From assembly GCF_018476525.1 (NCBI RefSeq), contig NZ_JAHCST010000008.1, forward strand, positions 62,001-126,000: DNA of 64,000 nucleotides. The letters run 5' to 3'. Every line of letters begins with the position of its first letter. The stretch's first letter is position 1. Made by a program: the position numbers and the translations under genes. Source of the DNA: Acrocarpospora catenulata. Lineage in GTDB: Bacteria; Actinomycetota; Actinomycetes; Streptosporangiales; Streptosporangiaceae. Of this stretch, positions 7,801 through 39,053 are shown piece after piece. The notes below the pieces were generated by a model. That model made no database searches, was not told where the DNA came from, and worked only from the letters and a program-made list of their open reading frames with translations.

Positions 7801-8368
7801 CGGCGCGCCCTCCGGAGAACAGCTCCGGCGCCATGTACATGGGGGTGCCGGCCAGCTCGCCCATCGAGGTCATCGACAGGCTCGCGGCCCGGGCGATGCC
7901 GAAGTCGATCACCCGCGGCCCGTCGGGGCCCAGCAGGACGTTCTCCGGCTTCAGGTCACGGTGCACCACATCGGCCTGGTGGATGGCGGCCAGCGCGGTG
8001 GCCATGCCCACGGCCAGCCGGTGCAGCCGGTCTCCCGTGAGCGGAGCCCCCCGCACCGCCGTACGCAGGCTCGGGCCGGGGACGAACTCGGTGACGATGT
8101 ACGGGCGCTCGCCCTTGAGGTCGTGGTCCCGGATGCGGGCCGTGCAGAACGACGCCACCTGCTGGGCGGCGGTCACCTCCCGGGTGAAGCGGCGGCGCAG
8201 GGGAGAGTCGCCCGACAGGTAGGCGTGCAGGACCTTGACCGCCACGCGGTTGGCCGCCTCGTCGTAGCCCTCGTAGACGACGCCCTGGCCACCCGAGCCG
8301 AGCCGGCTCGCCAGCCGGTAGCGGCCCAGCCTCGACGGGTCCCCCGGGCGCAGCGCGTCAGCCGTCAT
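4832..8368 (-). CDS. Ser/Thr protein kinase with WD40 propeller
   Basis: An 1178-aa membrane receptor-like kinase. The N-terminal PknB-type domain is complete: glycine loop GSGGQGVVYEG (24-34), K45, HRDLKPEN with D138, DFG (155-157) and APE-like APE/L at 180. Residues about 290-450 resemble the helical/winged region that follows the NTPase in nSTAND1 proteins (LPPSERQVARDLLLRLV, then RLHEWV), but no NTPase domain precedes it. One membrane helix follows (VVVLLIASLTAGALAW, about 460-475), with a linker of the RRVALQADAL type. The remaining 650 residues are WD40-type repeats, each with a FSPDGR-like signature. The ATG at 8368 has AAGAGA upstream. The extracytoplasmic propeller would sense a ligand or partner; the target is unknown. 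Confidence 0.9.
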   Translation of the reverse strand: MTADALRPGDPSRLGRYRLASRLGSGGQGVVYEGYDEAANRVAVKVLHAYLSGDSPLRRRFTREVTAAQQVASFCTARIRDHDLKGERPYIVTEFVPGPSLRTAVRGAPLTGDRLHRLAVGMATALAAIHQADVVHRDLKPENVLLGPDGPRVIDFGIARAASLSMTSMGELAGTPMYMAPELFSGGRAEPAADVFAWGAVVLFAATGRDTFTAPTTFAVINRLLNHDPDVEVLPGGLRDLVRAALSKDPASRPSAQRLLLALLGGGGGTTLAEGAQAAVDVRPPDGPADEPALGAVAEKVYAGLPPSERQVARDLLLRLVDVRDGEEVPRTAPLEELLEVRHPAAERVLATLEQAVLVRRREDTVAIGNAALLYAWPRLHEWVTVDRDALGRHRELGESARRWARNGRRPEDLLRGTALRQALDWTGATHLTLNATEREFVEASRTGSARQARRRRLVTSGVVVLLIASLTAGALAWDQSVRNDETGRRLAGEQARATARRVALQADALRGTDPVKAMLLSVAAYRIAGVPEAESAVLSSLAQQEQSVFTDPAPANEGRALSPDGRTLISAGADRVTAYDVVTGLPVRTFGGIGEAPVTAAVGPDGDTLALARGKMLELWSLRTGRRLGEGRWGPAEMTNNDGRPESMEFSPGGGYIVVRDNIGGPYVGLWNVARRALEKVDGYLSGARLGPGDRFGIVNTTLRTFPDEGTPADKRLPGHLPGSVLAFSPDGALAAVQEDGTTLWNLSTGKRDRRVFPGDAADAIFSPDGRFLITFADSAGGDLTLWRLADAAPLLRVTITSRIIGSPRLDSGNRTLSILDDAGRVTTYDVSRQTGPRRVLPPEALHPQFTTSGDALFALTGGTVSSWSVPGFTETGRFAAPGNELIVRVSPDGRTVVTLPPNDHTVGPTLWDAVSGRKLGDLPVMSNYYTADMQFSPDGRLLAIGHALPNDYYGQGDVVLVDLARRSQVARFDTVAGGVLSFSSDGRFLVTADDGGADVIDLVARKVLPHAEGPGTLAQRWMTLAPKGPLAASPYGSRAVVLWDTRTWRTTGQVFRVPGDVVGARFSPDGRILAVVHDTRVTLFDTVAGRQLGAGWTVTTGTSDPYAVKGPALAFTADGSLLRVVGRDGTYQDLPTDPARAVPAVCERAGRRLTQEEWREHVGADLSHREVCPAII

Positions 8369-8453
8369 GGTCTCTTAGATGGCGGATCACCGGCTTTGGT
8401 TCGGCGGGGGCACCCGGTACGGGCTACAAGCGAGTCCGCCATCGGCCGAGCAG

Positions 8454-8476
8454 CGCGATCATTGATCTTGATCGCG
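8454..8476. terminator. inverted repeat downstream of the ABC gene
   Basis: CGCGATCA (8454-8461) and TGATCGCG (8469-8476) are perfect 8-bp arms around a 7-base loop. The element lies between the end of the cassette-1 ABC gene and the kinase start. It has no T-run on the minus strand, so it may be an operator for the kinase instead. Confidence 0.35.
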
Positions 8477-8513
8477 TCTTCTGCGGCAGATGATGTCGCT
8501 GTGGTCGGTCGGT

Positions 8514-10364
8514 TCAACCCTCGAAGTGGCCTGGCTGGGCGTGCTCGACGGGGTCGCGATAGCCGGAGGCCTGGAGTTTGAACAGACGGGCGTACAGGCC
8601 GTTTCGTGCGATGAGCTCGTCGTGCCGTCCCACCTCGGCGAACACGCCGTCCTGAAGGACGGCGAGTGTGTCGGCGTGGCGGATGGCGCCGAGCCGGTGT
8701 GAGACGAGCACGCTCGTCTGGCCGGTTCGCAGGGCCGCTATGCGGGTGTGGACCTCGTGTTCCGCCTCCGCGTCCAGGCCGGAACTCGGCTCGTCCAGGA
8801 TCAGGAGATCACTGTCGCGCCGCAGCATCGCGCGGGCAAGTGCCACCCGTTGCCACTGTCCTCCGGAAAGGAAGACCCCGGTGTTCTCCTGATCGGACTC
8901 GTCGATGAACAGCCGGGTGAGCAGGGTTTCGTAGCCGCGGGGCAGGGATTGGAGCTTCTTGTCGATTCCCGCCTCGCGAGCGGCGGATTCGATGGCGAGC
9001 GTGTCCCGCATGAGGTCGAGCCGCCCGATCGCGATGTTCTCCCGTGCCGACATGTCGTAGGCCATGAAGTCCTGGAAAACGGCGCCTATCCTGGCTCTGA
9101 GTTCCGCCGGCTCGAAGTCCCTCAGATCGATTCCGTCCCAGGTGATGTGGCCCGCGGTGGGATCGTACATGCGGGTCAGGAGCTTCACTATCGTGGTCTT
9201 TCCCGCGCCGTTCAGGCCCACGAGTCCCATGGACGTCCCGGCCGGAATGTCGAGGCAGGCGCCTTGGAGAATCCAGGGATGGTCTTCGCTGTAGCGGAAC
9301 CAGACGTCGTGCAGCCTGATGCCTTGGGACAAGGAGGGGATCCGTGCGGGGTGTGGGGCCACGACGAGATCCGGTTCTGTGCTCTCGACGGCCAGGAAAC
9401 TCTTGAACAGCAAGATCTGCCCATGGGTTCGCGCCACTTCGCCGACGAGCGCGGCGAGGTGGCTCTGCGTTCCTGCCACGGCGGCGATGAACATCGAGAT
9501 GTCGCCGATCAGCAGAGCACCGTCGCGGGCGTGGATGATGGTCCAGACCAGACCGGTTCCCGCGATCAGCGCCGCCAACGTGCCAAGCGAGAGTTGGGTT
9601 ACGAGGTCACGCAGATCCAACTTCCTGTTCTCGGCATTGGCCGCCCGCCGCTCGGCGACCATCCGGGTGTGCAGGAAGGACCCGATGCCGAACAGGCGGA
9701 CCTCTTTCGCGGCCTGATCGTCGGTCATCAACTGCGCGTAGAAGATTTCCCGTCGTTCGAGCGGGCCCAGTTTCATGTGCATGGCGACCCGGCGCCGGGA
9801 AAGCGAAACCTCCGCCAGCAGGGTCGGCACCATGCTGGTCAGGATCACGCCTGCCATGATCGGGTTGAGGGCGAACAAGGATGCGACGAAACCCGCGGCG
9901 CCCAGGGCCGCTGCGGAGATGGACAGGAATCCCGAGAGGATCTGGCTGGGCGTGCGGCCGCCCATGGTCTGCGCCAGCCTCAGCTGGTTGAGGAAGGCGG
10001 GGTCTTCGAAGCGCGCGAGTCCCGGCAGCCGGTTGAGTGCGCCATACAGTCTGCTCTGGGCCGTCAGCGCAATCGATCTGTCCAGTTCCGATTGGCAGTA
10101 GCGGGCGCCCTCCGTCAGTGCCTTCGATGCCAGTCCCAGCGTCGCGAGCAGGGTCGCGAGAACGAGAACGGCTCTCGTCGGCTGGCCCAGCACGATGGCG
10201 TCCAGAATGAGTTTGGTCAGCCAGGCCGTGGTGACGGGTACTGCGGCGGTGCCCACGGCGATGAGCACCGCCAAAATGACGAGCCGTGACCTCGCCTGCC
10301 AGGCCAGGGAAAATGTCCTGGCCGTCATATGGGCGCTTTCTCGCATTGATTTCGGCCGGATCAT
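8514..10364 (-). CDS. ABC exporter of six-Cys peptide cassette 1
   Basis: A 616-aa half-transporter with five to six membrane helices, then an ATPase with Walker A GLNGAGKTT, signature LSGGQ, Walker B LLILDEPSSGLD and the H-loop VSHRLG. There is no N-terminal C39 peptidase, so leader removal must come from another enzyme, plausibly the operon's S26 peptidase. It is the last gene of cassette 1, 11 bases after the MauE-like gene; the ATG at 10364 has AAAGGA. It is clearly paralogous to the exporter at 33770-35587: both have near-identical VFQD-MAYD segments and the same acidic insertion just before LSGGQWQRVALARA. Likely role: export of the 68-aa cysteine-rich peptide. Confidence 0.85.
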   Translation of the reverse strand: MIRPKSMRESAHMTARTFSLAWQARSRLVILAVLIAVGTAAVPVTTAWLTKLILDAIVLGQPTRAVLVLATLLATLGLASKALTEGARYCQSELDRSIALTAQSRLYGALNRLPGLARFEDPAFLNQLRLAQTMGGRTPSQILSGFLSISAAALGAAGFVASLFALNPIMAGVILTSMVPTLLAEVSLSRRRVAMHMKLGPLERREIFYAQLMTDDQAAKEVRLFGIGSFLHTRMVAERRAANAENRKLDLRDLVTQLSLGTLAALIAGTGLVWTIIHARDGALLIGDISMFIAAVAGTQSHLAALVGEVARTHGQILLFKSFLAVESTEPDLVVAPHPARIPSLSQGIRLHDVWFRYSEDHPWILQGACLDIPAGTSMGLVGLNGAGKTTIVKLLTRMYDPTAGHITWDGIDLRDFEPAELRARIGAVFQDFMAYDMSARENIAIGRLDLMRDTLAIESAAREAGIDKKLQSLPRGYETLLTRLFIDESDQENTGVFLSGGQWQRVALARAMLRRDSDLLILDEPSSGLDAEAEHEVHTRIAALRTGQTSVLVSHRLGAIRHADTLAVLQDGVFAEVGRHDELIARNGLYARLFKLQASGYRDPVEHAQPGHFEG

Positions 10365-10375
10365 CGTGTCCTTTG

Positions 10376-10897
10376 CTAGGCGAAGAGATCTGCCAGGTCG
10401 TCCATCAGGACGACCAGAAACGACAGGACCAGTCCCGCGACAATGGTGATCCCTGTTCCTGCGGTCCACGGGCCAAGCCCGACGTCGGCGCTGAGCATGC
10501 CGACGACGGCCGCCACGGCAAGTAGGGTATTGCGCACGACGTGCCTAGTGGAGAATTCCGATGCCTGTCGTCCAAAGCAGTTGCAGGCCACGGAGCTGCC
10601 TCGGCGGATCACGGTGATAATCGCCGCATTGAATACCACGCAGAGCGCGGCGGGAAGGGCGAAGGCGTACACGAGCAGAGTCGAGCTCGTCATCAGGCCG
10701 AGCACTATCGACAGGACGGTGACCAGCTCGGCCGTGATTATCAGGAGTGCGACACTCGGTACGGCCCCGAGGGGCAGGAGCTGCATATTGCGGACCGAGT
10801 CCGTGAACGACGAGTAGTGGAGGATTTTGCCGACGCTCGAAGTAAGGAAGACGACGGCGAGTAGAGTTCCGCTGAATACGAGTAAATAGTCTGCCAT
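10376..10897 (-). CDS. MauE/DoxX-like redox membrane protein, cassette 1
   Basis: A 173-aa protein with four hydrophobic segments and a CNCFG motif (about residues 105-109) in a loop after the third segment, as in MauE-like proteins that shuttle electrons for periplasmic or extracytoplasmic disulfide chemistry. The start MADYLLVFSGTLLAVVFL leads straight into a membrane helix, followed by SSVGKILH, the family's conserved S-KL region. It lies 48 bases after the S26 peptidase gene and 11 bases before the ABC gene. With the thioredoxin-like neighbour it probably forms or isomerises disulfides in the six-cysteine peptide. The family assignment is good; the substrate is inferred from context. Confidence 0.8.
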   Translation of the reverse strand: MADYLLVFSGTLLAVVFLTSSVGKILHYSSFTDSVRNMQLLPLGAVPSVALLIITAELVTVLSIVLGLMTSSTLLVYAFALPAALCVVFNAAIITVIRRGSSVACNCFGRQASEFSTRHVVRNTLLAVAAVVGMLSADVGLGPWTAGTGITIVAGLVLSFLVVLMDDLADLFA

Positions 10898-10945
10898 CTA
10901 GCCGTCACCTACAAACAGTCAGCGGGCCCAGGCCATCTGGTCCCG

Positions 10946-11338
10946 TTATATTGTCAGCCGCCGTATCATTCGCCCCACTACTCGATCCATCGGTACGAAC
11001 CCGAAATGACGCGAATCCATACTGGACGGCAGGTTGTCGCCGAGAACGAATACATGGTCCGGCGGCACCACTCCCAGCCCGCCCGGGAATCGGTCGCCGG
11101 CGACGGCCGCGATCCGCTTGACGAGTTGCCCCGGCGAGTCGGGGCGTGTGATCACCACAACGTCGCCGCGCGCATAATTGGACGGACGGCGCGCGATAAT
11201 GACCCTGTCACCCGCGTTCAGGTGCGGGTTCATGCTCGATCCATGAACATGCACGACGCCGAACTTCCGGCGAAGCACGCCGAGGGTGGAAGCCAGACAG
11301 AACGCCACCGAGACAAGTGCTATGTAAGCAAGTTCCAT
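10946..11338 (-). CDS. S26 family signal peptidase, cassette 1
   Basis: A compact 130-aa single-pass signal peptidase. One N-terminal helix (YIALVSVAFCLASTLGV) precedes the catalytic box HGSSMNP (Ser before Met), the lysine box LVKRIAAVAGD and the C-terminal GDN-SMDSRHFG box, so all essential elements are present. I prefer the ATG at 11338, with GGGG 9 bases upstream, to the in-frame TTG three codons earlier, whose GGGG is too close. It follows the thioredoxin-like gene by about 40 bases. Its place in the operon and the AxA motif in the peptide leader suggest it is the dedicated leader peptidase, not the housekeeping LepB. Confidence 0.88.
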   Translation of the reverse strand: MELAYIALVSVAFCLASTLGVLRRKFGVVHVHGSSMNPHLNAGDRVIIARRPSNYARGDVVVITRPDSPGQLVKRIAAVAGDRFPGGLGVVPPDHVFVLGDNLPSSMDSRHFGFVPMDRVVGRMIRRLTI

Positions 11339-11377
11339 GGCAGGCAACCCCGGTCGAGCAGGTAGGCGGAAACAGGG

Positions 11378-11902
11378 TTACGCGGGTGTGTTGATTCTCG
11401 ATTCCGGGCCGATCTTCGGACTGGTCGCGAGCACGTTCCCGAATCCCACGGTGACGAAGACGGGGACTCCGGCGACACCGAACGCCCTGGCAACGGGCCC
11501 GTTCGGCTCTTCGATGAGAACAGGTCCCAGCGCCTCCAAAGTGGCCATGACGTCCCCGTCGTATACGCCGGAGAGTACGGACACGACTGTTCCCTTGTTC
11601 ATGGTCGCGTAGGAGATGAACGCCGGCATGGCCTCCTTGCAAGGGGCGCAGCCCGGCGAGAGGAAGGCGAACACGGTACCGAATTCGAGGGTGTCACGAT
11701 CGACCGTCACCCCCTGTGTGCTGGTGGCCATGAACTCGCCTACCGGAGTTCCCGGCGATGAGCTCAGCTGGAGGTCTCCAGCCTGGATGGGCGCCACTCC
11801 CGCGCCCCGCCCGACCTTTCGCGCGATACCCAGGATGAGCACCAGGTTGAGCAGAGTCAGACACAACGTCAGTATTAACAGACTTACCTGGAATGCGATC
11901 AC
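11378..11902 (-). CDS. TlpA-like thioredoxin protein, cassette 1
   Basis: A membrane-anchored thioredoxin-fold protein of about 174 aa from the GTG at 11902. An in-frame TTG at 11956 would add 18 residues, but the GTG puts the membrane helix (LLILTLCLTLLNLVLILG) at the very N-terminus, as in the paralogue at 35592-36131. The active site is CAPC in SPGCAPCKEAMP, and the cis-proline loop is VAGVPVFVTV. It would face outside the membrane and reduce or oxidise cysteines. It lies between the six-Cys peptide gene and the S26 peptidase gene, all in one direction. Confidence 0.8.
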   Translation of the reverse strand: MIAFQVSLLILTLCLTLLNLVLILGIARKVGRGAGVAPIQAGDLQLSSSPGTPVGEFMATSTQGVTVDRDTLEFGTVFAFLSPGCAPCKEAMPAFISYATMNKGTVVSVLSGVYDGDVMATLEALGPVLIEEPNGPVARAFGVAGVPVFVTVGFGNVLATSPKIGPESRINTPA

Positions 11903-12054
11903 AGTTCGGCCCCGGACGTAGATGGAGGTGGGGATTTCCGGACACCGGCACCGCAATCCATATCAGCATCACGATGCCGGGGATTCCAGCGATCAGATCA
12001 TCCCGCGAGAGCCGGCCGAACTACGATCACGGCAGCTCCTTGGGGTGATCGGTT

Positions 12055-12261
12055 TCAGCAGGTACCGCAGCCCAGGTCCGAGCTGTAGTAGTAGACGCCA
12101 CCGCCGCTGGGGTAACACCGGTAGGTGATCACTTTCCGGGAGTAGGTCGATGAGCAGTAGTAGCAGGAGGTGCTGTATACGGTGCAGGAGGCCGCTGCGT
12201 CTGATTCCGGAAGAACTGCCGACAGCAGTTCATCTCTGAAACGAGCCAAAGTGCGCTTCAT
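12055..12261 (-). CDS. six-cysteine secreted peptide precursor 1
   Basis: A 68-aa precursor with a strong GGAAGGAAG site before the ATG. The leader MKRTLARFRDELLSAVLPES is amphipathic, not a classical hydrophobic signal. It ends in DAAA|SC, giving an AxA motif at residues 22-24. The core (25-68) has six cysteines at 26, 33, 36, 49, 65 and 68, many Tyr/Ser/Gly residues, and ends GCGTC. The leader aligns with the precursor at 36268-36477 (M-RTL-R--D-LL---LP, then A-A at the same position), and both cores contain CYP. It is the first gene of the operon, with thioredoxin-like, S26, MauE-like and ABC genes after it. Likely a secreted disulfide-rich bacteriocin or signal; activity unknown. Confidence 0.85.
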   Translation of the reverse strand: MKRTLARFRDELLSAVLPESDAAASCTVYSTSCYYCSSTYSRKVITYRCYPSGGGVYYYSSDLGCGTC

Positions 12262-12428
12262 CGGATGATGTCTTCCTTCCTGATCGGAGTGATGTCGGGT
12301 TGAAGAATCTGCCGAACAACAACGCGGGTTTTCTGCTTACTTGCTCTCGTTGATGGAAGGCCCGGGTGCATACCTCCAGAGGTCGTCGTTTCTGCCCCAC
12401 AGCCTGGGGTGGGGCCAGGGTCTGCTCG

Positions 12429-12479
12429 GGCTGAGCATCGGACACGCCGGTATAGATCGGGTATAGGCCCAGGTGGAAC
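12429..12479 (-). promoter_or_regulatory. SARP-type promoter block of cassette 1
   Basis: Two GGTATAG heptamers (12449-12455 and 12460-12466) are spaced exactly 11 bp. A 51-bp ungapped stretch matches 39054-39104, upstream of the SARP gene, at 43 positions. Read towards the peptide gene, the repeats are followed about 9 bases later by CGATGCTC, a possible -10. Heptamer repeats at 11-bp spacing just upstream of -10 are the usual SARP binding layout. It lies about 190 bases upstream of the six-Cys peptide ATG. Confidence 0.7.
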
Positions 12480-12484
12480 AGGCT

Positions 12485-12757
12485 TTACCGCATCGTCAGC
12501 TGCAACTTGCCGGTCTCGTCAGTTGTGTGGACCTCGACGCTCAGGGTGGCACCGTCCGGCAGTCGAAGATCGAAGATTGGGTCAGAGTTGAGCAGTTCGA
12601 ACGCATCCAGCGCCGGCTCGTCGAGCCTGACCAGCTGTGCCTGAGCCTCCCAGGTACGCCCCTCGGAGCGGATCACCAACATCACCTCGAAGCTCGCAAG
12701 GCAAGTGATGGGATTCGCCCACCAATCCAGCCAAGCGTTGCTCTCGTAGACGTCCAT
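12485..12757 (-). CDS. hypothetical protein, 90 aa
   Basis: It starts MDVYESNAWLDWWANP, with an AAAGG site upstream, and ends GKLQLTMR. The protein is acidic, has one cysteine and no signal or membrane segment, and alternates beta-like stretches (FEVMLVIR, EAQAQLVRL, TLSVEVHTTD), suggesting a small beta-sandwich. It sits just upstream of the cassette-1 promoter block and is divergent from the response regulator at 12815, with 57 bases between starts. I do not recognise a family. It could belong to the two-component system or be an accessory or immunity gene of cassette 1. Confidence 0.65.
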   Translation of the reverse strand: MDVYESNAWLDWWANPITCLASFEVMLVIRSEGRTWEAQAQLVRLDEPALDAFELLNSDPIFDLRLPDGATLSVEVHTTDETGKLQLTMR

Positions 12758-12814
12758 GGTGAGCAGCCTTTCAGTGGACGGTGAGTCACGAGGACTGGCG
12801 CTTACGATCGATGC

Positions 12815-13504
12815 ATGGCAGGTGCGAGTGTGCTGGTGGTGGAAGACGATCCGGTGATCGGGGCGGAGCTGAGTGAGGCCCTCGACGTCAACGGGTACGC
12901 TGCCACGCTGGCCACTGATGGGCAGGCGGCGATTGAGAGGGCCCAGTCTGCTGCGCCTGATCTTGTTCTGCTGGATCTCGGGCTGCCTGACCTGGATGGT
13001 GTGGTCGTGTGCCGGAAGATCCGGCTTGCGGTGCCGGAGGCGGTGATTGTCGTTCTTACGGCGCGTACCGAGGAGCTCGATGTCGTGGTCGCCCTCGACG
13101 CGGGCGCCGACGACTACCTGACCAAGCCGTTTCGGCTGGCCGAACTGATGGCCCGCCTGCGTGCGCACATGCGCAGGCAGGCGGTGATCCCGCAGGAACG
13201 GATGCTGACCGTGGGCGCGCTGCGCCTGGACCTGGCGGCGCGGCGGGCTTTCCTCGACGGGACGGAGCTGGCGCTGCGGCCCAAGGAGTTCGATCTGCTG
13301 GCGGTTCTGGCGGGCAAGGCGGGGGAGGTCGTCACCCGCGAGGATCTGATGGACCAGGTCTGGGACGAGAACTGGTTCGGCTCCACCAAGACGCTCGACG
13401 TGCATGTGTTCGCGCTCCGCCGCAAGCTGGAGGAACCGCGCGTGGAGGGTGGGGCGCCGAGGATCACGACGGTCCGTGGGCGGGGCTACCGTTTCGAGCA
13501 ATGA
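12815..13504 (+). CDS. OmpR-family response regulator
   Basis: A 229-aa regulator. The receiver domain has acidic DD at 11-12, phospho-acceptor D54 in LLDLGLPD, T in VLTAR and K in LTKPF. The C-terminal winged helix (RPKEFDLLAVLAGKAGEVVTRE ending RGRGYRF) is typical. No clear ribosome site precedes the ATG, so translation may be leaderless. The partner is almost certainly the histidine kinase at 13580-14872, which converges on it. A 25-bp tandem repeat fills the gap. Likely target: the divergent lipoprotein/ABC operon from 14987. Confidence 0.92.
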   Translation: MAGASVLVVEDDPVIGAELSEALDVNGYAATLATDGQAAIERAQSAAPDLVLLDLGLPDLDGVVVCRKIRLAVPEAVIVVLTARTEELDVVVALDAGADDYLTKPFRLAELMARLRAHMRRQAVIPQERMLTVGALRLDLAARRAFLDGTELALRPKEFDLLAVLAGKAGEVVTREDLMDQVWDENWFGSTKTLDVHVFALRRKLEEPRVEGGAPRITTVRGRGYRFEQ

Positions 13505-13597
13505 TCAAGGCAAACCGGGTAACAACAGATCAAGGCACCCCGGGTAACAAGAGATCACGGCCACCGGCTTAACAAGGGATCACAGCACACCGGGAAG
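13503..13597. repeat. 25-bp tandem repeat, four copies
   Basis: GATC starts at 13503, 13528, 13553 and 13578, an exact 25-bp period. The unit is about GATCAAGGCANCCCGGGTAA plus CAA; the fourth copy is partial. It begins at the stop codon of the response regulator and runs into the last codons of the converging histidine kinase, so it occupies the whole gap between them. Confidence 0.85.
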
Positions 13598-14872
13598 TAG
13601 CAGGCTGAACACTGGTGGGCGGTCGCGTTGCAGGAGGAGGCGGCCTCCCTCGGCTTCGGCCAGTGAGCGGGCCAGGGCGAGGCCGATGCCGTGGCCGTCC
13701 CGGGGCATGCGGCCGAAAACGTCGCGGCCCTCGGCGACGCCCTCGCCCTGATCGCTCACGTTGACCGCTATCCCGGGCCCCACATCGGTAACTGTGAGCA
13801 GCACCTCCCCGGCGCCGTGGCGCATCGCGTTGTCGAGGAGGACGAGCAGGATCTGCCGGACCGCGGCCGACGACGCGGTCACCACGGGGAGGTCGCCGTC
13901 GAGCCGGATCGTCAGGCGGCGGCCCTGCCCGGCCAGCAGGCCGTGCCAGTCCTGGCGGACCTCCTCCACCAGCGCGGGCAGCTCGAGCGGCAGCCCCGCG
14001 CCGTGCTCGTCGCGGGCCAGGGTGACCAGATCCTCGATGATCGTCCGCATGCGCTCCCCGCGCGCCAGAGCATTCCTGATGGCCTCCGTCCGGTCGGCGG
14101 ACGGGCGGGACAGCGCCGACTCCAGGCCCAGCATCAGCCCGGTCAGCCCGGTGCGGAGCTGGTGGGAGACATCCGCGCTGAATGCCCGTTCCCGGGCCAG
14201 CACCTCGCCCAGCCGCCGCGCGGTCGCCTCCAGAGCCGCTCCGGCCTGGTCGGCCTCCAGCACTCCTGATCTCGGCGCCCGTACGGTGAAATCCCCGTCG
14301 CCCAGCGCCTGCGCGGCCCGGGTCAGCCGTTCGAGCGGGGTGGCCAGGCGGCGGGCCAGGTAGCCGGCCATCGCCGCGGCCAGCCCGAGCGCGACGACCG
14401 CCAGCCCGCCCAGCACCAGCCACGCCTGGTGCACCCGTTCCGCCACCTCGTCGTACGGGGTGGCCACCCGGACGGTCAACGCGATGCCCTCGTCGGACGG
14501 GATGGGCGCGGTCACGGCGAGGTACCCGTCCTCGATCGTCTGGTGGGTGTGTCCGTCCCGGCTCAGGGCGGCGAACGCCGAGGTCGGCGGCCCGGCTCCG
14601 AACAGCCGCTTTCCCTGGACGGTGTACACCCCGGCCAGGTGCGTGGAGACGTTCTTCGGCAGCGTCGGCGGGTTCGGGTCGGTGCCGGCGTCGTCGGGGA
14701 CGGTGGCGGCGATCCACGCGGCGTCCCGTTGCAGCGCGGAGGCCGTCTGGTCGCGATAGAGACGGCCGACCGACACCGCCAGCGGCGCCGCGAACAGCAG
14801 CACCGCCAGCGAGGTGGCGGCCACGATCGCGATCAGCGCCCGGCGGCGCAGCGGGGTCCCGGGGGGCCTCAT
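13580..14872 (-). CDS. sensor histidine kinase
   Basis: A 430-aa membrane kinase: helix near residues 12-34, an extracytoplasmic domain of about 110 aa, a second helix (VLGGLAVVALGLAAAMAGYL), HAMP, then the phospho-acceptor helix with His in FSADVSHQLRTGLTGL. The ATPase part has an N box (LLVLLDNAMRHG), a G1 box (VSDQGEGV) and a G2 box (GHGIGLAL). The sequence before the H box is SADVSHQLRTGL where most kinases have HELRTPL; this is a common actinomycete variant. Its start faces the ABC operon at 14987 and its end meets the cognate regulator, a layout typical of peptide-stress sensing modules. Confidence 0.92.
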   Translation of the reverse strand: MRPPGTPLRRRALIAIVAATSLAVLLFAAPLAVSVGRLYRDQTASALQRDAAWIAATVPDDAGTDPNPPTLPKNVSTHLAGVYTVQGKRLFGAGPPTSAFAALSRDGHTHQTIEDGYLAVTAPIPSDEGIALTVRVATPYDEVAERVHQAWLVLGGLAVVALGLAAAMAGYLARRLATPLERLTRAAQALGDGDFTVRAPRSGVLEADQAGAALEATARRLGEVLARERAFSADVSHQLRTGLTGLMLGLESALSRPSADRTEAIRNALARGERMRTIIEDLVTLARDEHGAGLPLELPALVEEVRQDWHGLLAGQGRRLTIRLDGDLPVVTASSAAVRQILLVLLDNAMRHGAGEVLLTVTDVGPGIAVNVSDQGEGVAEGRDVFGRMPRDGHGIGLALARSLAEAEGGRLLLQRDRPPVFSLLLPGVL

Positions 14873-32573: not shown

Positions 32574-33029
32574 ATGGCCTCCATCCGGCACGAAATCGTG
32601 ATCGACGCGCCCCCCGAGCACATCTGGGACGTGCTGCGCGACGTCGGCGCGGTGCACGAACGCCTGCTGCCCGGCCGGGTCAGCGACACCCGGATCGAGG
32701 GTGACCAGCGGTTCCTGACCTTTCCCGACGGGCATGTGGTCCGTGAGCTGATCGTCTCGATCGACGATGACGCCCGCCGGCTGGCCTACTCCGTCGTCGA
32801 GGGCGCGCGGCCGCCGACCGAGCACCACCATGCCTCATTCGAAGTCCGGTCTGAGGGGGATGGTGCCGGTCGGCTGATCTGGACCACCGATGTTCTGCCG
32901 CACTCGCTCGCCGCCGAGTTCCGCATTCGCATCGAACGCGGAGCGGCGGAGATGAAGCAGACGATCGAGGCGGCGAGGCTATTCGTCGGGCAGCAGGTAC
33001 CGCCAGGAGAGCACGAAGACCGCTCCTGA
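32574..33029 (+). CDS. SRPBCC-family protein
   Basis: A 151-aa START/Bet v1-like protein: IRHEIVIDAPPEHIWDVLRDVGAVH begins it and the helix MKQTIEAARLFVG ends it. It belongs to the polyketide cyclase/lipid-binding group that binds small hydrophobic ligands. ATG with GAGGAG upstream. Its last 51 bases overlap the opposite-strand lipoprotein gene; the fold is complete before the overlap. Function beyond ligand binding is unknown. Confidence 0.85.
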   Translation: MASIRHEIVIDAPPEHIWDVLRDVGAVHERLLPGRVSDTRIEGDQRFLTFPDGHVVRELIVSIDDDARRLAYSVVEGARPPTEHHHASFEVRSEGDGAGRLIWTTDVLPHSLAAEFRIRIERGAAEMKQTIEAARLFVGQQVPPGEHEDRS

Positions 33030-33731
33030 GCTGGTCTTGAAGAGCGCCTTGCCGTACTCCTGGCCGGCGGGAACGGCCTTGATGAGCGCGCCTGACGCTG
33101 CCTCGTCGAGGTCCTGCTGCCAGATCGGCTCCACCGTGCCTGACGGCTCCGGGACCCCCGCCGGCCACGCCTGCGGTGTGCCCTCCGCCGAGGCCGCCCC
33201 CTCGGCGACCATGCGGACGCGGGTGGCGGTGTAGTCGGCACCCTCCGTGGTGGCCCGGCTCGCCAGGCCGTCCATCAGCTTCTTCGCGTCCGAGAGTTCC
33301 TTCGGGTAGTAGTCCGCGACCTGGTCCAGCGCGGGGACCCGTACCTCCAGCATCTTTCCGTCCTTGGCCCGTACGCCGAGGATGGTGGTGGGGATGTCGG
33401 TCACCATCGGCGCGTCCGGTTTCGGGGTCGCGGTCGGCGGCTGGCCGGTCAGGTACTTCTCCATCGACGCGACGGTCTCGTCCACCTGCGCCTTGGTCAG
33501 GTCGAGCTTCTTGGTCGCGTCAACGATCACCAGACCGTCGCTGTACACCACCACCCGTGGCGGACGAAGCGCGTTCATGGTCGCGGTCACGAACCCGCCT
33601 TCGGCCCCCCACAAGGCGACCGGCTGCGCCGGCCCGTCCTCGGCGGCGACAGCAGTCGTGTCCGGCCCCGTTCCCCCGCAGGCGGCGACCAGCGACAACG
33701 TGGCCACAAGGAAGGTCATTCTCAGTCTCAT
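32979..33731 (-). CDS. lipoprotein downstream of cassette 2
   Basis: A 250-aa lipoprotein: MRLRMTFLVATLSLVAACGG has a lipobox with Cys18. The mature domain has no family I recognise; it contains PRVVVYSDGLVIVDA, which is typical of a group of actinomycete lipoproteins predicted to read a ligand, and ends VFVLSWRYLLPDE. The ATG at 33731 has GGGG upstream. It lies 38 bases after the ABC gene on the same strand, so it may be a component of cassette 2, for example a self-protection lipoprotein; that is inference. Its end overlaps the SRPBCC gene by 51 bases. Confidence 0.75.
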   Translation of the reverse strand: MRLRMTFLVATLSLVAACGGTGPDTTAVAAEDGPAQPVALWGAEGGFVTATMNALRPPRVVVYSDGLVIVDATKKLDLTKAQVDETVASMEKYLTGQPPTATPKPDAPMVTDIPTTILGVRAKDGKMLEVRVPALDQVADYYPKELSDAKKLMDGLASRATTEGADYTATRVRMVAEGAASAEGTPQAWPAGVPEPSGTVEPIWQQDLDEAASGALIKAVPAGQEYGKALFKTSSGAVFVLSWRYLLPDE

Positions 33732-33769: not shown

Positions 33770-35587
33770 CTAACCGCCGTTCCCCCGGGTGAGCTGGAAG
33801 TCGGCCGCCTGGCGGGTGAACAGGCGGGCGTACTCGCCGTCGAGGGCCATCAGCTGGTCGTGGGTGCCCTCTTCGGCGATCCGGCCGTCGGTGAGGACGA
33901 CGATGTGGTCCGCGCCGCGCACGGTGTTGAGGCGGTGGGAGATGAGCAGACTGGTACGCCCGGACCGGTAGTCGCGGAGTCGCTGGTGGATGGCGTGTTC
34001 GGCGTCGGGGTCCAGGCCCGAGCTGGGCTCGTCGAGGATGAGCAGGTCGGCGGTGTCGGCGCGGAGGAGGGCGCGGGCGAGGGCGACGCGCTGCCACTGG
34101 CCACCCGACAGGAGCACGCCCTGGCCGGGGTCCTCGTCCGGGTTGGCGGCGAAGAACCGCGACAGGATGGTGTCGTAGCCGCGGGGCAGGCTCATGAGTT
34201 TGTCGTGGATGTCCGCCCTGCTGGCCGCCTCGTGGAGCCGTTCCGGCTGGTCGAGGGAGTCGACGGCGCCGACGGCGATGTTCTCGGCGGCGGTGAGGTC
34301 GTAGGCCATGTAGTCCTGGAACACGGCTCCGATCCGGCGGCGCAGGCCGGCGATCCGCAGGTCGCGCAGGTCCGTGCCGTCCCATTGGACGCTGCCGCGC
34401 TCGGGGTCGTACAGGCGGCACAGCAGCTTGACGATGGTGCTCTTGCCCGCGCCGTTCAGGCCGACCAGGGCCACACTTCGCCCGTACGGGATGGTCAGGT
34501 TCACGCCCCGGAGCACGTAGGGGTGGTCGGCGTCGTACCGGAACCACAGGTCGCGGAGTTCGATGCCGCGCCGCAGCGGGGGCACGTCGCCGCCGGTGGC
34601 GGGTTCCGGCAGGTCGGGTCCGGCGGTCACGACGTGGGCGTAGTGGCCGGCCAGGACGAGTGCCTCGGTCAGATGGGCCAGCTGGACCACCATGCCGGAG
34701 AGGGCGGACTGGGTGCCCGCCACGGCGGCGGTGAGGACGGCCAGGTCGCCGATGCCGGCCTTGCCCGCCGCTATCCAGGAGACCAGCACGATCAGCGCGG
34801 CGCCCGCGATGATCGTGCTGAGAGCGGTCAGCGCTCCGTTGTAGCGGATGGCGGTCAGGTCCACCCGGCGTTCGGCCCGCTGCTGGGCGGCCAACTCGCC
34901 CAGCATGCGCCGGCGCAGGAAGTCGCCGATGCCGAACAGCCGGATCTCCTTGGCGGCCTGATGGTCGAGCATCAGCGTCTGGTAGAACATCCGGCGGCGT
35001 TCCGCGGGGGCCACCTCCCAGTTCAGGAGGGCGCGGTGGCGGCTGAGCCGGAGCTGGATGATCAGTTCGGGTACGGTGGCCGCGGCCACGACGGCGGCCA
35101 GCAGCGGGCTCAGCGTGGCGAGCGCGCCGAGCAGCCCGGTGATGGTGACACCGCTGCGGATCACGCCCAGCCCTGACTCGGTGATGAGCTGCGGGGCGGT
35201 CTGGGCGGACTGCTGGGCCATCTGGAGCCGGTCGTGGAACCGCGGGTTCTCCAGCCTGGTCAGCCCCTGCATGCGGCAGACGGCGGTGAACAGTTCGTCG
35301 CTGGTGTGCCAGACGATGCGGCGGTGCTGCTCCCGCTGGACGTACCCGGACAGGTGGGGCAGCAGCGCGGTCAGCGCTCCGAGTACGGCCATCGCGGCGG
35401 CCAGCGGGGTCGTCGAGGGGCCCACTCCGGCGGTCAGGCGATCGATCAGCAGTTTGGTCAGCCACGTGATCGCGACGGGGGAGGCGCCGGTCAGGACCGC
35501 CATGGCGAGCTGGGACAGGGCGAGTACGGGTCCGGCGCGCCAGACGAGCGCCAAGGTGAGCCGCAGCGGCCCGAGTCGTGACCTCAC
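33770..35587 (-). CDS. ABC exporter of six-Cys peptide cassette 2
   Basis: A 605-aa half-transporter: membrane domain (helices around residues 15-300), ATPase with Walker A GLNGAGKST, signature LSGGQ, Walker B LLILDEPSSGLD and H-loop ISHRLN. No C39 peptidase. It starts with GTG at 35587, four bases after the thioredoxin-like stop. It is paralogous to the cassette-1 exporter at 8514: both have AKEIRLFGIG/AKEVRLFGIG, VFQD-MAYD and an acidic insertion before LSGGQWQRVALARA. Likely exports the 69-aa six-cysteine peptide. Confidence 0.87.
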   Translation of the reverse strand: MRSRLGPLRLTLALVWRAGPVLALSQLAMAVLTGASPVAITWLTKLLIDRLTAGVGPSTTPLAAAMAVLGALTALLPHLSGYVQREQHRRIVWHTSDELFTAVCRMQGLTRLENPRFHDRLQMAQQSAQTAPQLITESGLGVIRSGVTITGLLGALATLSPLLAAVVAAATVPELIIQLRLSRHRALLNWEVAPAERRRMFYQTLMLDHQAAKEIRLFGIGDFLRRRMLGELAAQQRAERRVDLTAIRYNGALTALSTIIAGAALIVLVSWIAAGKAGIGDLAVLTAAVAGTQSALSGMVVQLAHLTEALVLAGHYAHVVTAGPDLPEPATGGDVPPLRRGIELRDLWFRYDADHPYVLRGVNLTIPYGRSVALVGLNGAGKSTIVKLLCRLYDPERGSVQWDGTDLRDLRIAGLRRRIGAVFQDYMAYDLTAAENIAVGAVDSLDQPERLHEAASRADIHDKLMSLPRGYDTILSRFFAANPDEDPGQGVLLSGGQWQRVALARALLRADTADLLILDEPSSGLDPDAEHAIHQRLRDYRSGRTSLLISHRLNTVRGADHIVVLTDGRIAEEGTHDQLMALDGEYARLFTRQAADFQLTRGNGG

Positions 35588-35591
35588 CCTG

Positions 35592-36131
35592 TCAGGTCCG
35601 GGACGGTACGGGCAGCCGCTCCAGCTTCAGGCTGCTGGCGGCGATGGTGGCGTCGGGGCCGACCAGGAAGAACGACGGGAAGGCCGTGACCGCGAACGCG
35701 TCCACCACCGCGCCACCCTCGCCCTCGACGACCACGCTCACGTCGTCCGTCAGCGCGGCGAGCAGGTTCGCGGGCTTCTCCTGGCCCTCCACCACCACCG
35801 CCAGCACCCGTACGCCGTCGGCCGCGGCCTCGCGGGCGGTGGCGGCGAAGGCGGGCGCCTTCGGCAGGCAGTGCCGGCAGTCGGTGCTGAAGAACCCGAC
35901 GAGGGTACGCTCGCCCGCGAAGTCGTCCGTGGTGACCTTGGTGTCCGTGGCGGTGAGCGCGGAGAAGGCCGGGATCTCGGCGCCCACGTCGAGGCCGGGG
36001 CTGACGGGAAGTCCCCCGGCGGGGGAGTCCTTGGTGATCTTTCGGAGTTTCCTGATGACCGCGCCGGTCAGGAGCAGGTTCACCAGCACGAGGCCGCCGA
36101 GCAGGATGACGGCGGCGACCAGGACGGCCAT
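35592..36131 (-). CDS. TlpA-like thioredoxin protein, cassette 2
   Basis: A 179-aa membrane-anchored thioredoxin-fold protein. One N-terminal helix (AAVILLGGLVLVNLLLTGAV) is followed by a redoxin domain whose active site is CRHC in FFSTDCRHCLPKAPAF. The cis-proline loop is VTAFPSFFLVG. The CRHC pair, different from CAPC of the cassette-1 paralogue, suggests a different redox potential. It lies between the six-Cys peptide gene and the ABC gene. Confidence 0.85.
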   Translation of the reverse strand: MAVLVAAVILLGGLVLVNLLLTGAVIRKLRKITKDSPAGGLPVSPGLDVGAEIPAFSALTATDTKVTTDDFAGERTLVGFFSTDCRHCLPKAPAFAATAREAAADGVRVLAVVVEGQEKPANLLAALTDDVSVVVEGEGGAVVDAFAVTAFPSFFLVGPDATIAASSLKLERLPVPSRT

Positions 36132-36165
36132 GGGCGTTCCCTTCGCTTCGAGGGTCGTGTGTCGT

Positions 36166-36267
36166 TCAGCGGAACAGGTCGTCGAGGAGCACGACGGCCG
36201 GCGCGGCGGCCGGCGCCCCCGAGGGGCGCGGGAAGGCCGCCGAGCCGCCGTACCCCGTTACCTCGTG
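36166..36267 (-). other. 33-codon open stretch, possible MauE remnant
   Basis: In frame directly after the six-Cys peptide 2 stop, 33 sense codons end PAVVLLDDLFR and a TGA (36166-36168). The end resembles that of the cassette-1 MauE-like protein (VVLMDDLADLFA). Cassette 2 has no MauE gene, so this may be a remnant of one. The match is short, and no start codon with a ribosome site was found. Confidence 0.3.
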
Positions 36268-36477
36268 TCAGCAGTAGCCGATGTTCTGCCAGGGGCTGCT
36301 GCAGCTGGGACGGTGGTACTTGATGCAGAGAAAACCCGTCGGGTTGGGGTAGCACTCCCGGTACCGGGTGCAGCCACCCGTCACCCAGTACTCGAAACAG
36401 TTGTCGGCCTGCGCTTCGGCTCCGGGAAGGAGTCGTTCGAGCAGCCGGTCTCCCAGGCGGTTCAGCGTGCGGATCAT
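36268..36477 (-). CDS. six-cysteine secreted peptide precursor 2
   Basis: A 69-aa precursor; the ATG at 36477 has AAGGGAG. The leader MIRTLNRLGDRLLERLLPGA parallels precursor 1 at the same residues (RTL, R, D, LL, LP) and ends AQA|DNC, an AxA motif at residues 22-24, exactly as in precursor 1. The core has six cysteines at 27, 36, 42, 51, 59 and 69, contains ECYPNPTG (compare RCYPSGGG) and ends with Cys. Spacing differs from precursor 1, so the folds need not match. The thioredoxin-like and ABC genes follow on the same strand; an S26 peptidase is divergent. Confidence 0.85.
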   Translation of the reverse strand: MIRTLNRLGDRLLERLLPGAEAQADNCFEYWVTGGCTRYRECYPNPTGFLCIKYHRPSCSSPWQNIGYC

Positions 36478-36548
36478 GCGTGCTCCCTTCACTGATTCGG
36501 GCGGGGAGGCCGCCCGCCCTGTGAGGATGCTCGGCGCGGCCTTCGCCA

Positions 36549-36604
36549 CGGTTGCGGCCGATCCGGGTACGCCGCAACCGGACGCGCTACCACGGCGCAA
36601 CCGG
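36549..36604. promoter_or_regulatory. inverted and direct GCCGCAACCG repeats
   Basis: CGGTTGCGGC (36549-36558) and GCCGCAACCG (36571-36580) are perfect inverted copies; a third near-copy, GGCGCAACCGG, lies at 36594-36604. They sit between the divergent six-Cys peptide and S26 genes and are candidate operators for cassette 2. Confidence 0.5.
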
Positions 36605-36649
36605 GCCGTCGCAGAATCCCGATCGGCAGCCCAGGCCGAAAGGTTGATC

Positions 36650-37090
36650 ATGCAAGCGATTCTGTTGTCGTCGCTGGTCGTGGTCGCGGTGGCGATCGTG
36701 GCCCGGCGCCGCTTCGTCGTGGTACGGGTGGCGGGGACGAGCATGGTTCCGACGTACCAGCCGGGAGATCGGGTCCTGGTACGGCGCGGCGCGCAAGCGG
36801 CCCTGCGGCGCGGTCAGGTGGTGGTCTTCCGGCGGGTCGAGCCGGGCGGCGCGTCAAGACCTGCCCCCCGGCTGCGTGAGACGGAGTGGCTGATCAAGCG
36901 GATCGCCGCGATGCCGGGTGACCGGGTGCCCGACCAGGTCACGGCGGGTGTGCGTGCCGCGCCGGGAGATCTGGTCCCGGCCGGCCGGCTGGTGGTGCTC
37001 GGCGACGGCCCCACCAGCCGGGATTCGCGGGACTGGGGTTACCTGCCGGTGGAGGAGGTGCTGGGCGTCGTCATGCGCAGGCTGTCGTAG
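36650..37090 (+). CDS. S26 family signal peptidase, cassette 2
   Basis: A 146-aa single-pass peptidase: helix LLSSLVVVAVAIVA, catalytic box AGTSMVPTY, lysine box WLIKRIAAMPGD and final GD-PTSRDSRDWG box, so active-site Ser and Lys are present. ATG with AAAGG. It is divergent from the six-Cys peptide gene, 172 bases apart, and converges on the SARP gene. It is the counterpart of the S26 enzyme in cassette 1 and probably cuts after the AxA motif of peptide 2. Confidence 0.88.
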   Translation: MQAILLSSLVVVAVAIVARRRFVVVRVAGTSMVPTYQPGDRVLVRRGAQAALRRGQVVVFRRVEPGGASRPAPRLRETEWLIKRIAAMPGDRVPDQVTAGVRAAPGDLVPAGRLVVLGDGPTSRDSRDWGYLPVEEVLGVVMRRLS

Positions 37091-37096
37091 CCAGCG

Positions 37097-38983
37097 TTAG
37101 GAACACCGCGCGAGCAGCGCGCCCAGGACACGGGCGATCGCCTTGTCCCGGTCGTCGGGGGTTTCCTCCAGTTCGGCGCGTTCCCGTGCGTAGAGCCGCA
37201 CCAGATCATGGCAGCGGTAGCGGAACCGTCCGTCCCCGTCGCTGCCCTCGCAGGTCAGCAGCTGGGCGTCCACCAGCCGATCGGCGCAGGTCTCCGCCTC
37301 GGACACGGGGACGTCGAGGGCCGCCGCGAGCACCCAGGCGGCGAAGGCGGGGGCGTCGAGCAGGCCGAGCAGGCGCAGGGCCCGCCGGGAGGTCTCGTCG
37401 AGCATGCGGTAGTCGGCGGCCAGGCTCGCCCGTACCGACAGGTCGCCGATGGCGAGCTCCGCCAGGCGTTGCCGCTCGCCGCGCAGGCGGTCCGCCAGGT
37501 GTTCGAGGCGCCAGTGCTCGCGTAGCGCCAGTTTCGCCCCGGCGATCCTGATCGCCAGGGGAAGGTGGTCGCAGAGCCGCAGGATCTCGGCGGCGACCGC
37601 GGGCTGGGCAGCCACCCGGTCCGGCCCGGCGATGCGCGCGAGCAGCGCCGACGCGGATGCCGGGTCGAGCGTGCCGACGCGTGCGGACCGGGCGCTCAGT
37701 CCGGCCAGCCTGCGCCTGCTCGTCACCAGCACGGCGCAGCTCGGACTGCCCGGCAGGAGCGGCCTGACCTGCTCCTCGCTCGCGGCGTTGTCCAGCACCA
37801 CCAGCACGCGGCGCGGGGCCAGGAGGGCACGGAACAGTTTTCCGCGCTCCTCAAGCCCGTACGGCACCGCCCGCTCGTCCACGCCGAGGGCGATCAGAAA
37901 GTGCGCCAGCGTCTCGGCCGGGTCGCTCGGGCACGGGCAGGTTCCGTTCAGGTCGATGTAGAGCTGGCCGTCGGGGAACGTCTCCCGCAGGCGGTGGGCG
38001 ACGTGGACGGCGAGCGTCGTCTTGCCGGCGCCCGCCCTGCCGTACAGCGCGACGACCGGCATCGTGTGGCCCGCGCCGGTGAGCGACAGGCGCAGCGACG
38101 CGGCCATCTCGTGCCGGCCGGTGAAGTCCGCGATGTTCGGCGGCAGATGGCACGGCGCGACCGCCGTGGGCCCGATGCACGCCTCGTCTTCGGCAGGGAG
38201 ATGGGCCGCCCCGTCCAGCCCGAGGATCTCGTCGACGACCTCGGCCGGGTCGCCCCGCAGGATCGCCTCGTGCATCCGCTGCAGCATCCAGCCGGGCTCC
38301 ACGCCGAGTTCCTCGCCCAGCACGGTTCGCGTCCGCTGGTAGACCCGTAACGCCTCGGCCTGGCGCCCGGCGTGGCAGAGCGCCAGCATCAGACAGGCGT
38401 GCAGCCGTTCCCGGTACGGATGCAGCTCGGCCATCTCGGTCAGGCCGGTGACCAGCTCCGCGTGGCGGCCCAGGGCCAGGTTGACGGCGGCCAGTTCCTC
38501 GTGGGTGAGCAGCCGCTCCTCCTCGAGCCGCCGCGCCTCGTCCGCCACCAGCGCCGCGTCCCCGATGTCGGCGTACGCGGGCCCCCGCCACAGGTCCAGC
38601 GCACGCTGGAACAACGTCCCCGCCCTCGGCAGATCCGCCTTCCTCCTGGCGGCCCGCCCCGCCGCCGTGAGCTCGTGGAAGCGCAGCGCGTCCAGCTCCG
38701 GCGGCAGCACGGTGGCGGCGTAGCCACCGGTGCCGTGGACGATGCGGTCGTGCTCGCCCATCGCCTGCCTGAGCCGCAGCACGTACACCTGAAGGGTCTT
38801 GTGCGCGCTGCGCGGCGGATCGTTCCCCCACAGGGCCTCGATCAGCGTCGGCACCGCCACCGGCCGGCCCGGCGTGCACAGCAGGGTCGCCAGCAGGCGT
38901 CGCAGCATCGCCGCGCCCAGCGGGACGGGCACCCCGTCGCGGCTCGCCCGCAGCGGCCCGAGAACGTCGAACTCCAACAACAT
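37097..38983 (-). CDS. SARP/AfsR-family regulator
   Basis: About 628 aa. It has an OmpR-like DNA-binding domain (about 5-90; ALWGNDPPRSAHKTLQVYV), a BTAD helical domain (about 97-245; RFHELTAAGR...RLHACLMLALCHAGRQAEALRVY) and an NB-ARC-type NTPase with Walker A GRAGAGKTT and VLVVLDNA (Walker B). The C-terminal TPR domain of full AfsR is mostly missing. I start at the ATG 38983, which has GAGGGG, not at 39028. Such SARPs activate secondary-metabolite and peptide clusters by binding heptamer repeats. A promoter with these repeats lies upstream, and an identical block precedes cassette 1. A CebR-like operator sits between. Confidence 0.9.
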   Translation of the reverse strand: MLLEFDVLGPLRASRDGVPVPLGAAMLRRLLATLLCTPGRPVAVPTLIEALWGNDPPRSAHKTLQVYVLRLRQAMGEHDRIVHGTGGYAATVLPPELDALRFHELTAAGRAARRKADLPRAGTLFQRALDLWRGPAYADIGDAALVADEARRLEEERLLTHEELAAVNLALGRHAELVTGLTEMAELHPYRERLHACLMLALCHAGRQAEALRVYQRTRTVLGEELGVEPGWMLQRMHEAILRGDPAEVVDEILGLDGAAHLPAEDEACIGPTAVAPCHLPPNIADFTGRHEMAASLRLSLTGAGHTMPVVALYGRAGAGKTTLAVHVAHRLRETFPDGQLYIDLNGTCPCPSDPAETLAHFLIALGVDERAVPYGLEERGKLFRALLAPRRVLVVLDNAASEEQVRPLLPGSPSCAVLVTSRRRLAGLSARSARVGTLDPASASALLARIAGPDRVAAQPAVAAEILRLCDHLPLAIRIAGAKLALREHWRLEHLADRLRGERQRLAELAIGDLSVRASLAADYRMLDETSRRALRLLGLLDAPAFAAWVLAAALDVPVSEAETCADRLVDAQLLTCEGSDGDGRFRYRCHDLVRLYARERAELEETPDDRDKAIARVLGALLARCS

Positions 38984-39007
38984 CACCCCTCGCGAGGCCC
39001 AGTCGTG

Positions 39008-39021
39008 TGGGAGCGCTCCCA
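39008..39021. promoter_or_regulatory. CebR-type operator TGGGAGCGCTCCCA
   Basis: A perfect copy of the 14-bp palindrome recognised by the cello-oligosaccharide repressor CebR of streptomycetes. It lies 25 bases upstream of the SARP ATG and downstream of the SARP promoter block, so a repressor here would block transcription. Confidence 0.85.
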
Positions 39022-39053
39022 TCTTCATGAAGCCCGCTTCTCTTCGCGTGCTT

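Follow-up and report, generated by a model that had tools for sequence, protein, structure and literature searches.

The 64,000-nucleotide stretch of Acrocarpospora catenulata contig NZ_JAHCST010000008.1 analysed here (the window) carries, 21 kb apart, two cassettes that each encode a six-cysteine precursor peptide beside a set of export and processing proteins, and we followed up an earlier note on the second of these (cassette 2). The cassette 2 precursor, pep2, is a 69-residue open reading frame on the minus strand (36268..36477) that matches the peptide family profile with E=4e-25. Residues 1–24 form a leader, MIRTLNRLGDRLLERLLPGAEAQA, and residues 25–69 a core with six cysteines (C27, C36, C42, C51, C59 and C69); the predicted mature core, DNCFEYWVTGGCTRYRECYPNPTGFLCIKYHRPSCSSPWQNIGYC, occupies 36271..36405 on the same strand, with its boundary set by the family-wide AxA motif. 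Transcription on the minus strand runs from pep2 to the gene for a membrane-anchored TlpA/MauD-like thioredoxin-fold protein with a CRHC motif (35592..36131; AhpC-TSA PF00578, 49 bits; Redoxin, 43 bits; MauD TIGR02661, E=4e-5) and on to an ATP-binding cassette (ABC) exporter, ABC2 (33770..35587). ABC2 is a half-transporter built of a transmembrane and a nucleotide-binding domain, with ABC_tran and ABC_membrane as its sole full Pfam domains, and a domain search of the cassette exporter found no C39 peptidase domain. Divergent from pep2 on the plus strand is the gene for an S26 signal-peptidase-like protease, S26-2 (36650..37090; PF10502, 77 bits), with the serine (GTSM) and lysine (LIKR) motifs present. 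Peptide, CRHC protein, exporter and divergent protease all lie where the earlier note had placed them.

Between pep2 and the TlpA-like gene we found the scar of a further gene, mauE, of which only about the last 17 codons remain (36166..36219, minus; ..AVVLLDDLFR-stop). Orthologues of pep2 in two other genomes (G098 and G120) are 83–84% identical, and comparison of pep2 with its orthologues gives ratios of nonsynonymous to synonymous polymorphism (pN/pS) of 0.28 in the leader and 0.46 in the core, indicating purifying selection in the coding frame. Neither cassette's peptide belongs to a Pfam or NCBIfam family, with chance-level matches falling far under the cut-offs, and the PDB held no sequence relative of them.

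A shared leader and module across the peptide family

Relatives were present in 20 of 151 genomes of the window's GTDB family, and a 19-row profile run over 395 genomes of the class returned 35 positives, of which those with strong matches belong to the window's family and one other. Across 41 loci (40 context loci and the window), 54 precursors share a leader of 24 residues ending in D-R-x-x-x-x-x-x-P-x3-A-x-A, with the proline and the last alanine in all 54, the first alanine of AxA in 53, the aspartate in 52 and the arginine in 48. Leader columns carry up to 4 bits of information. The core is variable and holds an even number of cysteines (4, 6 or 8) in 53 of the 54 precursors, the first usually a few residues past AxA, in spacings that vary across the family. 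Within sets of orthologs the core changes faster than the leader and the cysteines are invariant. A scan of 10-residue hydropathy found no Sec-type hydrophobic core (h-region) in the leaders of the family precursors, whose maximal values average 0.85 and reach 1.99 at the highest.

Precursor, MauE, TlpA-like protein, ABC exporter and S26 protease (the last counted with a rebuilt profile) occur together in 33 of the 41 loci, and the motifs of the enzymes are kept: serine and lysine in 37/37 S26 proteins, CxC(F/L)G in 37/37 MauE proteins and CxxC in 39/40 TlpA-like proteins. In locus L149 a TlpA-like copy at 8740-9306 has CGPT in place of CxxC and is possibly a redox-inactive partner; a second TlpA-like gene lies at 10194-10730. 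As a control we scanned named genomes with a profile of the exporter, which gave 80 loci. TlpA, MauE, S26 or the leader were confined to 25 of these (L158-L181 and L186), with ABC identities of about 41% or more, and none of these parts was found at the other 55 loci, whose exporters are mostly more distant. Since the cassette parts are confined to the 25 loci closest in their exporters, this exporter subfamily and the peptide occur together, the leader being usually, not always, present at the positive loci.

The hosts of these 25 loci are Thermomonospora, Actinomadura, Nonomuraea, Nocardiopsis, Embleya, Streptomyces, Micromonospora, Amycolatopsis, Rhizocola and the cyanobacterium Komarekiella. 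On a contig of a Komarekiella atlantica metagenome-assembled genome (L178, 41.3% GC), genes for a TlpA-like protein, a precursor with eight cysteines and the leader motif, S26 and ABC follow one another at 5221-8782, and the module is therefore not restricted to actinobacteria. Plasmids of Streptomyces clavuligerus and Embleya also carry the exporter subfamily; a search of pep2 itself against plasmids gave no match. On the linear megaplasmid pF1D18A of S. clavuligerus (L238) a complete cassette with two precursors spans 6222-10447; the S. clavuligerus module appears in the annotation as two hypothetical proteins, a MauE/DoxX family protein, a hypothetical protein, an ABC transporter and an S26 family signal peptidase, and the first two of these have the leader motif. 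The cassette family is widespread in soil actinobacteria and apparently uncharacterised.

The number of precursors differs among loci. Locus L104 (G062:C28) has six tandem precursor genes and one more after mauE at 8582-14453, all with different cores, and one TlpA-ABC-S26-MauE set serves these seven; three precursors lie at L101. At position 9711 of L137 (G027:C41) the usual leader and about four core cysteines are followed by a frame that continues for more than 300 residues with no cassette genes adjacent, probably a frameshifted or fused remnant.

Regulators recur among the neighbours. An AfsR/SARP-type regulator with Trans_reg_C, BTAD and NB-ARC domains by Pfam (37097..39028, minus) adjoins cassette 2 and stays with it across genera. 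Regulators of the BTAD-type cluster are present in 23 of the 41 loci, set against an expected presence in about 5–10% of random 20 kb stretches, a rate taken from one genome (about 37 BTAD genes in the 10.3 Mb of the window's own) and applied to loci that are not independent. A SARP/AfsR-type regulator probably controls the cassette.

Three related cassettes and their lost genes

All genes of cassette 1 lie on the minus strand: the 68-residue precursor pep1 (12055..12261; family profile E=4e-12) with six cysteines (C26, C33, C36, C49, C65 and C68); a TlpA/MauD-like protein with a CAPC motif (11378..11911); the protease S26-1 (10946..11347; PF10502, 92 bits); MauE with a CNCFG motif (10376..10897; PF07291, 77.5 bits); and the exporter ABC1, identified by domain search, pairwise comparison and family tree (8514..10346). 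Counting bore out the cysteine gaps read in the earlier note, 6,2,12,15,2 in pep1 against 8,5,8,7,9 in pep2, and its claim that the two cassettes have sequence-related members also held: identities are 46% for the exporters, 38% for the S26 proteases and 32% for the TlpA-like proteins, and the likeness of the peptides is confined to the leader (12/25 residues identical). The best matches of ABC2 in its own genome are the exporter of a third cassette (67%) and ABC1 (45%); because the next full-length exporters match at 36% or less, the relatedness of cassettes 1 and 2 exceeds chance.

Phylogenetic analysis, the check proposed in the earlier note, supports this kinship and separates the two cassettes within it. 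The outcome that the note named as refuting, ABC and S26 pairs no nearer to one another than unrelated exporters, did not occur: the tree of ABC exporters sets all 37 from cassettes apart from seven others of the window's genome, with several deep forks open. ABC2 groups with orthologues from another genus (g65; 84–88% identical) and with cassette 3, and ABC1 falls in a separate clade with two same-genus copies and one from G062. A quick S26 tree agrees, placing S26-2 with orthologues from another genus (80%) and S26-1 with same-genus copies. In nucleotide comparisons, two same-genus genomes (G107 and G128) share cassette 1 over exactly 8551-12320 with unrelated flanks, and four g65 genomes share a block spanning cassette 2 and its regulator (33784-38999). 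The different clades in both trees rule out a local duplication of the two window cassettes. Because the ABC and S26 pairs nest in separate clades and the relatives of cassette 2 lie in another genus, their lying 21 kb apart is probably a coincidence. In a broad sense the two copies are paralogues, as the note had proposed: the leader and the processing set stay constant and the cysteine-rich core varies. The note's implication that they diversified within one region is not supported. A simple insertion of cassette 1 was also considered; a clean empty site was not demonstrable, as the flanks lie far apart in G107.

A third cassette with its own precursor lies elsewhere in the genome, on contig C119 (L091). 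Its peptide, pep3 (family profile E=2e-23), has the six-cysteine spacing of pep2. Comparison with related loci reveals that both this cassette and cassette 2 have lost processing genes. Four loci (L092, L093, L094 and L096) have an intact mauE between the peptide and TlpA genes; in a BLASTN alignment of cassette 2 with L093, the match picks up again at L093:9066, within the 3′ end of the intact gene (9007-9546), and about 480 bp are gone from the pep2 stop codon up to the last 17 or so codons of mauE. Cassette 3 also lacks mauE, as does its counterpart in a same-genus genome (L095), which keeps the other cassette genes. Relative to L095, the loss in cassette 3 covers precisely the S26 gene (445 bp), the whole of which is cleanly missing at position 13238 of L091 against L095:9900-10345 within surroundings 92–93% identical. 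The set of processing genes that the earlier note called fixed calls for a qualification, with MauE lost from cassette 2 and S26 from cassette 3.

Genome searches found a single cassette-type MauE, that of cassette 1 (191 bits, with the next DoxX-like protein at 44 bits), and cassette-type S26 genes in cassettes 1 and 2 only; because the assembly is a draft (10.29 Mb in 181 contigs, 98% complete), an additional MauE or S26 may lie in one of its gaps. As the sole cassette-type MauE belongs to cassette 1, cassettes 2 and 3 lack MauE and cassette 3 lacks S26, the distribution of genes suggests that the three cassettes share parts in trans, with MauE supplied from cassette 1 and S26 from cassettes 1 and/or 2.

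The earlier note had offered a lipoprotein gene downstream of ABC2 (32979..33731, minus) as a possible immunity gene. This gene lies outside the conserved cassette 2 block, and a gene 76–80% identical to it occurs in four same-genus genomes (G107:C23, G128:C29, G027:C73 and G080:C30) on contigs in which we found no cassette 2; we therefore rejected a role in cassette immunity and regard the lipoprotein as outside the system. A Ser/Thr kinase-WD40 gene adjoins cassette 1 (4832-8368), with a counterpart at L094:18567-19901. In G140 the kinase-WD40 gene and the lipoprotein gene lie about 8–10 kb away from the orthologue of cassette 2, in a rearranged neighbourhood.

Proposed pathway, known systems and function

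We propose, with a probability of roughly 0.7, that the cassette makes a small secreted disulfide-rich peptide through ABC export, TlpA/MauE oxidation and S26 cleavage. The sequences themselves establish which genes are present, how leader and core are conserved, the catalytic motifs and the gene losses; the sequence of events, the cleavage site, the disulfides, the sharing in trans and any activity are predictions. The precursor would be made in reduced form with a 24-residue amphipathic leader, for which Sec export is unlikely because the leader has no hydrophobic core; the dedicated exporter would instead recognise the leader and carry the precursor across the membrane without cutting it, since it has no C39 domain. 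Outside, the membrane-anchored TlpA/MauD-like protein would form the disulfides, typically three, and the CxC membrane protein MauE would reoxidise it; the membrane anchor of the one and the invariant CxC of the other fit an oxidising pair outside the membrane. The dedicated S26 protease would cut after A-x-A and release a 45-residue beta-sheet peptide, as type I signal peptides end in a pattern that fits the constant P-x3-A-x-A and an S26 protein with serine and lysine motifs is encoded alongside. Recurrent neighbours at the examined loci are cassette parts, regulators and generic genes, and because no other modification enzyme recurs, disulfides are the sole predicted modification. With its conserved leader, variable core and adjacent dedicated processing enzymes, the predicted product would be a ribosomally synthesised and post-translationally modified peptide (RiPP) in the wide sense.

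Parts of this scheme have parallels in known systems. MauD and MauE are thought to form the disulfides in the small exported cysteine-rich light chain of methylamine dehydrogenase, and the cassettes draw on the same MauE (PF07291) and MauD-like thioredoxin-fold families; in contrast, no dehydrogenase or mau structural genes are among their recurrent neighbours, and their substrate, a short peptide, has an ABC exporter and an S26 protease of its own. SodX, the small S26-type protease of nickel superoxide dismutase, trims the short non-Sec leader of SodN. The cassette proteases resemble it in size and in the type of leader, but S26-1 (52.3 bits) and S26-2 (36.9 bits) score under the TIGR02754 cut-off of 63.25 and the substrate is unrelated. 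Class II bacteriocins likewise combine a short leader, a dedicated ABC exporter and a disulfide peptide, whereas the cassettes have AxA in place of GG, a separate S26 protease in place of a C39 domain and no immunity gene that we could find. Bacterial defensins, picked out by a predicted signal peptide and by the cysteine pattern of the cysteine-stabilised alpha-beta fold (PMC11561630), are also small, secreted and six-cysteine; the cassette leaders differ in having no h-region and the core models in being all-beta without a helix. SR25 of Nonomuraea is unrelated as far as its published text shows.

The closest prior report, and the sole relevant match among the open-access papers searched, is the set of MauE-containing RiPP candidates from decRiPPter (PMC7794033), which comprises three uncharacterised Streptomyces families in which mauE, joined by mauD in one of them, lies beside cysteine-rich precursors and without a mau operon. 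These are computational candidates with at least eight cysteines, compared with six in pep1 and pep2 and eight in some relatives; the passages on these families describe no leader, S26 protease or AxA site, and the families may or may not be the one found here. S. viridosporus, named in that work, also has a member of the cassette family (L167). The combination of a signal-peptide-like leader end without a hydrophobic core, a dedicated ABC exporter and S26 protease, MauD/MauE folding and paralogous cassettes sharing one MauE and S26 in trans may be an undescribed class of peptide pathway in actinobacteria and at least one cyanobacterium, to which we give nearly even odds.

Several points weigh against the proposed pathway. 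The S26 protease may act on another substrate, the cleavage site in the precursors being read from the motif alone. The structure predictions proposed in the earlier note favour the pathway in returning compact all-beta cores, with four strands for pep2 (AlphaFold2, mean pLDDT, the predicted local distance difference test, 84.6) and three for pep1 (pLDDT 91.1), but the models were built on 4 and 7 sequences and neither had a fold match with E <0.001. Neighbour clustering across the 41 loci found no immunity gene recurring beside the cassettes, in a check that would miss a locus-specific immunity gene or immunity conferred by the exporter, and the core pN/pS of 0.46, below 1, gives no sign of diversifying selection. 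Cassette 2 may also be decaying instead of borrowing MauE. We consider it unlikely that it is a remnant inactivated by the loss that cut its mauE to a 17-codon scar, as the six cysteines, the leader, the exporter, the CRHC motif and the S26 catalytic residues are all intact, pep2 still shows pN/pS below 1 against its orthologues, the genome retains one MauE, and the L095 counterpart of cassette 3 has kept its other genes without mauE.

For the secreted peptide of the proposed pathway, a role as an antimicrobial or competition peptide is plausible and the likeliest, given the variable core, several precursors per locus, several cassettes per genome and the SARP-type regulator. The specific form of this idea, a dedicated bacteriocin toxic to near relatives with immunity through the exporter or an unrecognised gene, is a tentative reading that we hold at less than even odds: the constant leader and variable core, the multiple precursors (seven in L104, three in L101) and cassettes, and the regulator all fit it, but no immunity gene recurs, the candidate lipoprotein is found without cassette 2 and the core is under purifying selection. 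Those same features, the lack of a recurrent immunity gene and the core pN/pS, leave room for a signalling or developmental peptide that acts as an extracellular differentiation cue and not as a toxin, as do the association with regulators and the presence of a family peptide in each of five genomes of the genus. We judge this rather doubtful, since core sequence and cysteine pattern differ strongly between loci and species and no receptors are conserved among the neighbours. The DoxX-like fold of MauE, with a weak match to NCBIfam HvfX (13.6 bits), would suit a metal-binding or redox peptide like the copper-binding peptides whose clusters include DoxX-like proteins; this is improbable, as the HvfX score is far under the cut-off of 80, no MNIO enzyme is among the recurrent neighbours, cysteine spacing is not conserved across the family, and even cysteine numbers with a TlpA oxidoreductase suit disulfides better.

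Together, the leader motif and five-gene module make it easy to recognise members of a large, uncharacterised family of disulfide-rich peptides, whose hosts include antibiotic-producing actinobacteria and whose precursors are hypothetical proteins in the one annotated example examined. What MauE and MauD do is still poorly understood, and a substrate of 45 residues would be far simpler than methylamine dehydrogenase. The natural losses of MauE and S26 make shared processing directly testable in the genome of A. catenulata itself.

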